Shown in pieces: positions 38,705 through 41,791 of a stretch of 64,000 nt of DNA. How positions within the stretch are numbered: the stretch's first letter is position 1; each line of letters starts with the position of its first letter. The stretch spans positions 1,178,001-1,242,000 of the forward strand of contig JAGYVD010000005.1 in the NCBI GenBank assembly GCA_021209875.1, given 5' to 3'. Origin of the DNA: Rosellinia necatrix. Taxonomy: Eukaryota > Ascomycota > Sordariomycetes > Xylariales > Xylariaceae. Made by a program: the position numbers and the translations under genes. The notes beneath the pieces are model-generated. The model searched no databases. It saw only the letters and a list, made by a program, of their open reading frames with translations, and was not told the DNA's origin.

Positions 38705-39970
38705 CTATAGGTTCCCTCTCTGGGCCTGTTCGCGCTCGATGGACTCGAACAAGCTCTTGAAGTTGCCGGCGCCGAAGCCCTCGAAGTCGTGGCGCTCGAT
38801 GATCTCGACGAAGACGGTGGGGCGGTCCATGAGGGGTTTGGTGAAGAGCTGGAGGAGGTAGCCGCCCTCATCGTAATCGATGAGGATGCTGAGGCTCTCG
38901 AGGGTGTTGAGGTCCTGACCGAGCTCCCAGGAGCGCTTCTCTGTCTTCAGGCGGTGGCGGAGGGTGTCGTAGTAAGTGGAGGGGACGGAGATGAACTCGA
39001 CGCCGCGGGCGCGCATGGCCGAGACGGTGCCGATGATGTCGTTGGTCAGGAGCGCGATGTGCTGCACGCCGGGCCCGGAGTTGAAGATGACGAACTCCTC
39101 GATCTGTGACTTCTTCTTGCCCGGTGCCGGTTCGTTGATGGGCATCTTGACGACAGCGTTGGCGCTGCTCATGACGATGCTGTTGAGCGCCGAGAACTCG
39201 GTGCAGATGGTCTTGTCGTCGACGCTCCAGAACCGGTGGAAAGAGAGGCACCGCTCGTAGAAGTCACACGCCGCCACCATCTCGTTCCAGTCCTGGTTGC
39301 CGACGCAGTGGTCGATGCGCACGAGATCGATGGGCGGCAGCGCTACCGATGATGGCGCCGGCTCCCGGGCTGCGTAACCTGGGAGGAACGGTCCCTTGTA
39401 GCCCCGCCGCGAGATGAGCGTGTGGGTGGTGTCCCCGTACGTCCGGACGACAGCCGTCATGACATCGCCCTCTTCGTCGGTGCCGTGGGCCACGCGCGGA
39501 GGCTGCACCGAGATGGCCATGCCGTCGGCGCCTGATATCGCGCGGTCATATACCGCCCGGACATCGTCGACATCAAACGCGACGTCCTTGACGGCATCAC
39601 CGTGGCGCTCAAGGTGTTGATGCATTTCTTTTAACAGTGCCAACTCATCTTTGGATATGGGCTCCTCAGCCGGTAGATGTACAGAGGAGCGAATAGGTGA
39701 GGTGAACACGAAGCGGACGTCATTATTAGCTACGACGTATGACGTGAAATACCGGCTCCCAGTCTCGAGGCCTTTATATGCTATCGTACGGAAACCGAAG
39801 AGTGTGTTGTAGTATGAGGCGGCCTGCTTTGCGTTGCCCACCCACCAGGTGATGTGGTCGTAACCGTGGAACTCAGGCACACCGGCTTGTACGGCGTATT
39901 CGTCCGCATGAGACGGCAGCGTCGTTGAAAACTGCTGTGGGGGAGAGTCTGTAATCGCTGAGGGGGCCAT
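38705..39970 (-). CDS. 4-hydroxyphenylpyruvate dioxygenase (HPPD)
   Basis: A single exon of 421 aa, a normal length for the family. It converts 4-hydroxyphenylpyruvate to homogentisate in phenylalanine/tyrosine catabolism, usually in the cytosol. It has two vicinal-oxygen-chelate halves: [19 protein letters not shown] begins the first, RIDHCVGNQ the second. The Fe(II) ligands are His221 (DHCVGN), His304 (GVQHIAL) and Glu389 (VEIIER). The C-terminal lid helix [16 protein letters not shown] is complete. The chosen ATG gives MAPSAITD; the frame is open for 32 codons further up but without an ATG. In filamentous fungi homogentisate feeds energy metabolism and pyomelanin. It is divergent from the TTC36-like gene. 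Confidence 0.96.
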
Positions 39971-40999
39971 GGTGGGTATTTTGGATGTATAAGAGGTATG
40001 TATATATGTATGTAGGTAAAGGTGAATAGAGTGCGAGGTAGACGAGCGTGACTTATATAAGTACACAAGCTATCAGCCACCGTGCTTCTGCTCTACGAAC
40101 ACAGCCAAAAGTACGGGCAGTTTGGGAAGGTCTGTCGATTTATAAGATAGGAGGAATAGTTGAAAACACGGCACCTAATGTAACCTTAACTATCTGATCT
40201 GTAAGAATTGACATGACTCCCGGTGGCTTGAGGACGGATAACGAGGGAGAGTTTGGGGACGGCTTGAATTCCGCACACCGGATCTGCCGTCGATGGCGGG
40301 CGAAAGCCGCGCTCGGCAGCAACGGCGGCTGGCAAACCTTGCCAATGCAGAAACAGCCGCCTATCGCATCTGTACACCCATTGGTAGTTTAGGTGCCGTC
40401 GAAGATGCATGAGGTAGTGTACTTGCGCGGTCAAGGTCGGCGTCGATGGGACAAAGGCGTCAGCGGGCCGAGGATAGCCGCTCTAGTCAGGTAACAGCCA
40501 CGACCTAGTCAGACAGCGCTCATTAGTCAGGTAACGTGCACTATCTAGTCAGGTAACGCCGCTAGTCGAGTAACGGTCCTACGCGCTCCCCATTCCCGAC
40601 GCCACCCATACCCTGCAACGGAAACAAACAACTGAGGTTGCACGGGTAGCGCAGGGAGTTACGTACATTGCTCGTCGTGGGGGGCCGCTCGAAGGGATCT
40701 GCCGCAGTGGTCAGCACAGCACGGGCTAGTAGTGATGGCAACACCAAACGGATAGCGGCTCGACTTCACCTTTGAGCCGATAAGGTCTTTCGTCATTAAT
40801 AGCCCGAGACGCACTCTTTCCCCTCTTGACGAACAGCCTCCAGTTGTGGTCTACTTCCAACTGCACCTTTTCTTGTTATCACTGTCGGCTCTCCGCCAAA
40901 CTGATACCGCTTGCCTCTGACACCTCGTGTACTTACTTAATCACCCTAGCAAACTCAAGACGGCCTCACCTGGCAGGAAGCGTTAAATATTCCGGCATC
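39971..40999. promoter_or_regulatory. Shared divergent promoter region HPPD / TTC36-like
   Basis: 1,029 bp between two start codons pointing away from each other, so it contains both promoters and 5' UTRs. No exon is recognised. A direct-repeat cluster (40,483-40,574) sits near its middle. Confidence 0.65.
40483..40574 (+). repeat. Five direct copies of CTAGTCAGGTAAC
   Basis: Copies at 40,483-40,495 (exact), 40,504-40,515 (CTAGTCAGACAG), 40,523-40,535 (TTAGTCAGGTAAC), 40,545-40,557 (exact) and 40,562-40,574 (CTAGTCGAGTAAC). All have the same orientation, with uneven 17-22 bp spacing. Uneven spacing with conserved cores is more like a cluster of protein-binding sites than a simple tandem repeat. 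The factor is unknown. Confidence 0.75.
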
Positions 41000-41791
41000 A
41001 TGGCTCAAAGCTCCCTCAGTCGTCGCGACTTAAATGTCCTAGATAAGATGAGAGATCCAGAGGCCAATCCGGTGACGGCGGTTATGATTGATTCGAACTT
41101 GCCCAAGGACCCCAATGTCACCGACACTTCAGTCTATGAGCGTGTTTCCCAGAAAGAACGAGACATCGTGTTGGGTATCCAACAACTAGAGATGGAACTT
41201 GCTGCGCTCAGACCCCCGGTATCGAAAGAACCGACCAACGACTATCGTCAATATGTCCACGAGCTCGGGCATCTAATTTCAGAGAATCCTCGATATGCTA
41301 GTGCTCGAAACAACAGAGCACAGGCTTTGAGAAGGCTGTATGGGGACACGGTAATCCTGTCGGGGCAATCAGATTCGAAGGCACTGATACGAGGCGCCGA
41401 CAAGCACGAGATTTCCGAAGCTGCCCTGACGGTGTTGTCAGACCTCGACGAGGCTATTTCTCTCCTGACACCGAAGACTCTTTTCGCCCCCATATCGCCG
41501 GTAACATGCAAGACTCTATCACAGGCGCACACCCAGAGAGCCGCGGTTTACTACATGACGAGTAAATTAATAATGTCAGATGTAGCCATTTCTCTCGGTG
41601 GTCGCAAAGAAGAAAAATGGACCAAGTTTGATTTCGAAAGCGCGGCCTCTCGGGATTTTGCTCTAGGGGGCCGATACGGAAACGAGGTTGCGAAAGGATT
41701 AGCCGTCAGTACCAACCCAACGGCAAAGCTGTGCGGGCAAATAGTCCGTGAGGCGATGAAGAAGGAATACGGGCCTGCATTCGCACAATAG
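41000..41791 (+). CDS. TTC36-like tetratricopeptide repeat protein
   Basis: An uninterrupted 263-aa frame from ATG 41,000. The middle and C-terminal parts resemble animal TPR protein 36 (TTC36/HBP21): ASARNNRAQALRRLYGD followed by VLSDLDEAISLLTP (first TPR helices), QAHTQRAAVYYMTSK, then KFDFESAASRDFALGGRYGN and the family-specific end NPTAKLCGQIVREAM. The fungal protein has an N-terminal extension of roughly 80 residues with SQKERDIVLGIQQLEMELAAL, likely a helix. TPRs bind other proteins; no catalytic motif is present. No signal peptide or membrane segment, so cytosol or nucleus. In mouse TTC36 binds HPPD and protects it from ubiquitin-dependent loss. Here its gene is head-to-head with the HPPD gene, which makes the same role plausible but unproven. 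Confidence 0.88.
   Translation: MAQSSLSRRDLNVLDKMRDPEANPVTAVMIDSNLPKDPNVTDTSVYERVSQKERDIVLGIQQLEMELAALRPPVSKEPTNDYRQYVHELGHLISENPRYASARNNRAQALRRLYGDTVILSGQSDSKALIRGADKHEISEAALTVLSDLDEAISLLTPKTLFAPISPVTCKTLSQAHTQRAAVYYMTSKLIMSDVAISLGGRKEEKWTKFDFESAASRDFALGGRYGNEVAKGLAVSTNPTAKLCGQIVREAMKKEYGPAFAQ

Follow-up and report, generated by a model that had tools for sequence, protein, structure and literature searches.

The 64,000-nucleotide stretch of the Rosellinia necatrix genome studied here (hereafter the window; contig JAGYVD010000005.1, positions 1,178,001 to 1,242,000) carries a pair of divergently transcribed genes that are the subject of this work. On the minus strand lies the intronless gene for 4-hydroxyphenylpyruvate dioxygenase (HPPD; 38705..39970), encoding a protein of 421 amino acids (aa) that ends in ...QRGNL, and on the plus strand lies an intronless gene (41000..41791) for a 263-aa protein which, based on profile comparison and on the report of Keller (2011), we assign to the TTC36 family and regard as the probable orthologue of HmgX. 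The two are separated by a divergent intergenic region of 1,029 bp (39971..40999, delimited from the gene coordinates), presumed to work as a bidirectional promoter. The HPPD coding frame runs uninterrupted from 39,970 to 38,708, with the stop at 38,705, and its product passes the TIGR01263 equivalog profile (425.2 bits, cut-off 277) and matches HPPD structures in the Protein Data Bank (PDB), including 5ec3/3isq. All iron ligands are kept (H221, H304 and E389), aligned to those of the human enzyme, which we take to be numbered H183, H266 and E349. A preliminary description of this DNA, made from its letters alone, had proposed an intact HPPD with all iron ligands, divergent from a tetratricopeptide repeat (TPR) gene over 1.03 kb, and this was borne out. 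When a strict ligand pattern was applied to the best 120 listed HPPD matches, a sample that leaves the HPPDs of more distant fungi outside, 92 matched fully and the other 28 missed the second site only; this may reflect an over-narrow pattern, and the count was not used. Both the HPPD gene and the TTC36-like gene give a single match in the 49.1-Mb genome.

Placement of the 263-aa protein was based on two sets of relatives. The fungal set comprises the best 120 of 830 matches at E ≤ 10, more distant fungi being unseen, while the vertebrate TTC36 set comprises the best 120 of 537 matches at E ≤ 10, all from mammals and birds and mostly recorded under the name TTC36; the query for the latter was a human TTC36 sequence, and the matches themselves are database records. 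Among the listed fungal relatives, 104 of the 120 have a size of 262-264 aa. A profile built from 47 fungal sequences was compared by hhalign with one built from 20 vertebrate TTC36 sequences, which returned a probability of 98.4% (E 5.4e-15, score 103.5) over an alignment that starts at the N-terminal D-x2-VL motif and extends as far as the NPxAxLC helix at the C-terminal end; 100 column-shuffled vertebrate alignments scored 23.5 at most. Moreover, the fungal profile scored 54.5-92.3 (probability 93-98%) with each of the 120 listed single vertebrate TTC36 sequences, and no more than 21.9 with the 224 control frames, namely all distinct open frames of at least 60 aa taken from 12 loci where the genome has TPR_11 matches. 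The corresponding fungal hidden Markov model (HMM) matched all 120 listed vertebrate proteins with scores of 21.8-38.4 bits (E values between 9e-9 and 1e-3, for 177,635 sequences), with the 224 frames reaching at most 7.0 bits and shuffled proteins at most 2.8 bits, and in the reverse direction each of the 121 fungal proteins was matched by the vertebrate HMM (25.5-51.2 bits). A profile search thus puts positions 41,000-41,791 where the preliminary description had expected it to, and the 263-aa protein is, as judged by sequence profiles, a member of the TTC36 family. Some fungal records in NCBI and UniProt already carry the name 'Tetratricopeptide repeat protein 36-like'.

The predicted structures are in line with this placement. 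In the AlphaFold2 (AF2) model of the fungal protein (predicted local distance difference test, pLDDT, 82.5; predicted template modelling score, pTM, 0.76; residues 1-3 and 233-238 below pLDDT 50), helical hairpins are predicted at residues 43-67/78-95, 100-114/135-156 and 167-190/209-234, followed by a capping helix at 240-257. The model of a bird TTC36 (pLDDT 76.1, low for residues 1-37) has helices at 45-63/67-80, 85-97/101-114, 119-135/139-151 and 166-183, which correspond to the fungal ones; the order of hairpins and capping helix is identical in both models, and the residues held in common sit in matching helices. As modelled, the fold of the fungal protein is that of three TPR-like hairpins with a C-terminal helix. 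A joint alignment of 10 fungal and 7 vertebrate sequences contains 32 invariant columns, from the N-terminal D-x2-VL via YNNRAQA / RNNR[AV]QA to NPxAxLC. The sequences which the preliminary description had noted as common to animal TTC36 are indeed present and align with the vertebrate YNNRAQA and NPY[AS]ALCN: NNRAQALRRL (N104-L113) falls within the motif RNNRAQALRRLYGD (residues 103-116; 41306..41347, plus strand), in helix A of the second TPR-like hairpin, whose N, N, R, Q, A, R, L and D columns are invariant between fungi and vertebrates, and NPTAKLCGQIVREAM (N239-M253; 41714..41758, plus strand), with invariant N, P, L and C columns, covers the start of the capping helix, which is found in both AF2 models. 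The fungal protein differs from vertebrate TTC36 in its longer N-terminal part and, in the joint alignment, in insertions within the A2-B2, B2-A3 and A3-B3 loops.

Domain and structure libraries were less informative. Pfam returned only TPR_17, which at 13.9 bits fails its cut-off of 24.4, so that the protein stays below every Pfam TPR cut-off; the loop insertions plausibly account for this missed match, and a Pfam TPR match is not a defining feature of TTC36. The NCBIfam search gave no match, and the single sequence compared with the PDB gave four rows only, all at E 0.57 or worse. Comparison of the model with solved structures (Foldseek/VIA) returned generic TPR folds, with TTC36 not among the rows and no specific relative; the top rows were the TPR domains of CHIP, though at E 0.17 only. 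One could then argue that the protein should be placed in a different TPR family or be seen as a general co-chaperone of Hsp70/Hsp90, and that it adjoins HPPD through ordinary Pezizomycotina synteny without functional meaning, the more so as RPL27, NCE101 and SSL1 adjoin the pair with no evident link to tyrosine. We regard this as very improbable, as the fungal HMM, which matched all 120 listed vertebrate TTC36 proteins, found no chain at E ≤ 10 among the 177,635 sequences of the PDB, where chains of HOP, PP5 and SGT2 are present. General TPR co-chaperones (CHIP, HOP, SGT, PP5) are set apart from the fungal protein by that result, and, unlike them, it offers no evidence of EEVD peptide binding. 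In addition, deletion of hmgX blocks the HPPD step specifically (PMC3203155).

The association of the two genes was then evaluated in other fungi, taking contigs of identical length as the same contig and using the longest contig per protein cluster. On this basis, 61 of the 120 listed TTC36-like relatives are co-located with one of the best 120 HPPD matches, as compared to approximately 3.4 expected by chance for random positions of the two genes within a genome assumed to measure 45 Mb; for contigs of up to 100 kb, co-location was found in 8 of 34 cases, with 0.01 expected. Locus tags are consecutive in eight of the ten contig-sharing pairs for which both tags are given (ONZ43_g5099/5100, GQX73_g3720/3719, E0Z10_g8144/8143, ANO14919_051130/051120, Uu.00g071360/071370, JN550_006127/006128, EsH8_II_000961/000962 and M426DRAFT_320932/320933), and non-consecutive in the other two (M434DRAFT_397228/397231 and ACRALDRAFT_1064868/2028341). 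Contig sharing and tag order establish that the linkage between HPPD and the TTC36-like gene is conserved. The preliminary description had suspected as much; linked pairs are found throughout Xylariales and on into Colletotrichum and Sodiomyces, and Keller (2011) described hmgX as adjoining hppD in most of the ascomycetes then sequenced, with an apparent bidirectional promoter in many of them (PMC3203155).

That report provides the functional context for the window gene. The Aspergillus fumigatus hmgX gene (AFUA_2G04210) is described there as having a 771-bp transcript without intron and without a conserved domain, and Neurospora crassa and M. grisea are named among the holders of HmgX; a further source reports that hmgX accompanies hppD in Eurotiomycetes and Dothideomycetes clusters (PMC3914699). 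The window gene resembles it in lying divergent from hppD, next to a presumed bidirectional promoter, in being intronless and in encoding 263 aa as against about 256 aa. From position, size and lack of introns, it is probably the orthologue of Aspergillus hmgX. The two loci differ in that A. fumigatus hmgX lies within a six-gene cluster, while in R. necatrix hmgA and fahA are located on another contig; despite this, hppD and hmgX are still paired here. In A. fumigatus, the hmgX deletion strain does not grow on tyrosine, accumulates 4-hydroxyphenylpyruvate (pHPP) and forms no homogentisate (HGA), with hppD mRNA unchanged. HmgX is cytoplasmic, and tyrosine induces its gene together with the rest of the cluster; Keller (2011) proposed HmgX as an accessory factor of HppD (PMC3203155). 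The same tyrosine and pigment phenotype was described for a P. marneffei hmgX deletion (PMC4374905). Since hmgX deletion blocks the conversion of pHPP to HGA while hppD mRNA is unchanged, the link to HPPD has already been shown in fungi. The proposal of the preliminary description that the fungal TTC36-like protein is an HPPD partner was thus, in effect, already answered by the deletion strains of A. fumigatus and P. marneffei (PMC3203155, PMC4374905), and its view of the fungal TPR family as anonymous does not hold, the family being almost certainly HmgX.

On the animal side, where TTC36 is a liver protein of mammals, Xie (2019) reports that TTC36 co-precipitates with the mammalian enzyme (HPD) via its VOC2 domain, that the HPD QEYVD motif is dispensable for this binding, that TTC36 blocks both the phosphorylation of HPD at T382 by STK33 and PELI1-mediated degradation, and that HPD is reduced in Ttc36-/- mice, which show tyrosinemia (PMC6753076). 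The account of mouse TTC36 in the preliminary description, in which it binds HPPD and its loss leads to HPPD loss and tyrosinemia, matches that source. Fungal and vertebrate proteins are accordingly alike in their functional tie to HPPD or HPD, besides the whole-length profile match, the three TPR-like hairpins, the capping helix, and the NNRxQA and NPxAxLC motifs. The fungal protein differs in that the HPPDs found with it lack T382. The C-terminal RGNL is found in 120 of 120 listed HPPDs and aligns to human L381, one residue before T382, and both T382 and the TNME motif of human HPD are absent from all 120. These data bear on whether the mouse mechanism is ancestral, that is, whether fungal TTC36 makes a C-terminal phospho-degron of HPPD inaccessible to a kinase and to a ubiquitin ligase of the FHA type, in the way that TTC36 keeps STK33 from phosphorylating T382 of human HPD and PELI1 from being recruited (PMC6753076). 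With the target residue missing from every listed fungal enzyme, protection of T382 cannot operate on them and such an origin is very improbable: because all 120 end before T382, the STK33-PELI1 mechanism is unlikely to be ancestral, and the outcome common to both lineages, failure of HPPD when its partner is missing, probably goes back to something that predates T382. A Pellino profile found no match in the genome, but control genomes were equally silent, which makes this search uninformative.

A second feature of fungal HPPD concerns the possible contact with HmgX. Relative to human HPD, alignment to 5ec3/3isq places an insertion of 16 residues within HPPD residues ~94-113 (39632..39691, minus strand); between the same flanks, 32 residues are found in 117 of 121 HPPDs and 33 in one, the pattern being unmatched in three, as compared to 16 in the human enzyme. 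This is probably the ascomycete-specific N-terminal HppD insertion which Keller (2011) gave as 13 aa and proposed as the HmgX contact (PMC3203155). As human HPD, which lacks the insertion, still binds TTC36, it is unlikely to form the core of the HmgX/TTC36 interface.

Altogether, we consider it quite probable that the divergent pair is hppD-hmgX, with HmgX being the fungal member of the TTC36 family and a dedicated, post-transcriptional chaperone or stabilizer of HPPD. Under this proposal, HmgX/TTC36, a small TPR protein of three hairpins, would bind HPPD after translation and maintain its fold or its iron loading, or else guard it against degradation, with the result that 4-hydroxyphenylpyruvate could be converted to homogentisate, and the common divergent promoter region would allow enzyme and helper to be induced together by tyrosine. 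Family membership, conserved linkage and the absence of the T382 site were obtained in this analysis. The dependence on the helper of HPPD activity in fungi and of HPD level in mouse, as well as the tyrosine co-induction in A. fumigatus, was shown by others; we infer direct binding of HmgX to HPPD in fungi and a stabilizing or maturing mode of action.

The main competing explanation is that HmgX is an obligate activating subunit or an iron-delivery factor, in whose absence HPPD protein is present but inactive. This would agree with the finding that crude extracts of the double hmgX and hmgA deletion strain produce no HGA from added pHPP even though hppD mRNA is normal (PMC3203155), while in mouse it is the amount of HPD protein that is affected (PMC6753076). 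Two motif scans of prokaryote genomes, through which only close motif matches are reachable, gave 28 and 35 pattern matches, none of which was upheld by tblastn as a TTC36 relative. The HPPDs of other kingdoms are known as active enzymes, and, taken together with the failure to find a TTC36 relative in prokaryotes, this makes HPPD chemistry as such seem to need no such subunit. In a literature search on recombinant ascomycete HPPD, none of the 10 papers listed out of 107 bore on this question. A subunit or iron-delivery role is tentative and, in our judgment, rather unlikely, and we favor HmgX as a chaperone or stabilizer.

Nevertheless, a number of observations weigh against this reading of the pair. 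The first concerns the family assignment: single-sequence similarity is weak, with 25% identity to a human TTC36 sequence and 28-34% to bird TTC36 in the joint alignment, and although the window gene is the best match of bear TTC36 in the 49-Mb genome (rows 1 and 3 of three), this is at weak E values of 0.2 and 0.4, with another frame in between (E 0.40). Moreover, the vertebrate HMM is less specific than the fungal one, as some ordinary TPR frames of the genome reach 29.8, 23.0 and 22.8 bits, which overlaps the scores of the fungal relatives (25.5-51.2) or falls just short of them, and the vertebrate profile also returns 53 PDB sequences with E ≤ 0.001, among which generic TPR chains are numerous; specificity was for this reason judged from the fungal side. 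The tblastn searches of Keller (2011) in human, C. elegans and Dictyostelium detected no homologue of HmgX (PMC3203155); this is probably a limit of tblastn, and TTC36 fits the missing human homologue. Secondly, orthology with hmgX is based on position, size (771-bp transcript, 792-bp coding sequence) and the absence of an intron rather than on sequence comparison, and no protein named Aspergillus is among the best 120 of the 830 fungal matches. With regard to linkage, 59 of the 120 listed relatives have no contig match to an HPPD; 26 of them are on contigs of up to 25 kb, and for others HPPD lies outside the listed 120 or was possibly clustered under another strain, which makes these 59 evidence for neither separation nor linkage. 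Finally, the P. marneffei hmgX deletion strain is described as lacking the macrophage phenotype of the hpdA deletion (PMC4374905), so HmgX may be only partly needed in some conditions, and papers also tie TTC36, by title or abstract, to c-Myc and to YBX3/SPRED1, so TTC36 may not be HPPD-specific in mammals.

Since HmgX and TTC36 are both needed for HPPD and are related by profile, they are probably the same ancient partner. Going further, we lean, with some reserve, towards a single family of HPPD-dedicated helpers older than the split between fungi and animals, whose ancestral job would be post-transcriptional maturation or stabilization of HPPD, to which the shielding of T382 from STK33 and PELI1 would be a later addition, made on a tail that the listed fungal HPPDs lack; hmgX genetics would then serve as a direct model for the tyrosinemia that follows when TTC36 is lost. 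In the fungal literature on HmgX (2011) and the mammalian literature on TTC36 (2019), HPPD is found to depend in the same way on a small partner. Bringing the two together places HmgX in a family and provides it with a fold, while TTC36 gains a fungal genetic system; it also means that the mechanism published for mammals is unlikely to have been the original. No paper naming both hmgX and TTC36 was found in a search that covered neither subscription papers nor preprints, and the co-mentions of hmgX with tetratricopeptide, of TTC36 with Aspergillus, and of hmgX with chaperone and hppD were off topic by title. The link between HmgX and TTC36, fungal deletion phenotypes included, seems to be unreported, but the TTC36 label for the fungal family is already in annotation and HPPD dependence is already known in fungi. 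Nitisinone and major herbicides act on HPPD, so the factors that keep this enzyme active are of broad interest.

With respect to the intergenic region, short local repeats of TAGTCAGGTAAC occur at 40484..40575 on the plus strand, with exact copies at 40484, 40524 and 40546 and degenerate ones near 40506 and 40563. Four copies of TAGTCAGGTAACG without mismatch exist genome-wide, two of them in this region; with up to one mismatch there are 29, as compared to 35 for the backwards control, meaning that it is not commoner. No TAGTCAGGTAAC was found in the 1.3 kb that precede the hmgA match or the fahA match, and simple pattern counts, made without statistics, gave nothing distinctive as a promoter motif in common with hmgA and fahA. 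These two genes are approximately 12 kb apart on contig C4 (hmgA at 1,777,165 and fahA at 1,790,464), with a Zn2Cys6 transcription factor gene located between them (L032:3939-5612), and a second hmgA match, on contig C3, is partial and far below cut-off.

Around the pair, the gene for the TFIIH subunit Ssl1 (SSL1; 36328-37878) lies on one side, and NCE101 (42139-42378, minus strand) and the gene for ribosomal protein L27e (RPL27; 43138-43650) lie on the other. An HPPD-family record of Hypoxylon texense carries the name '60S ribosomal protein L27B', perhaps a mix-up with the name of a neighbor that hints at conserved RPL27 adjacency. At the left end of the window, positions 1-300 look very AT-rich, and possibly represent a block of repeat-induced mutation.

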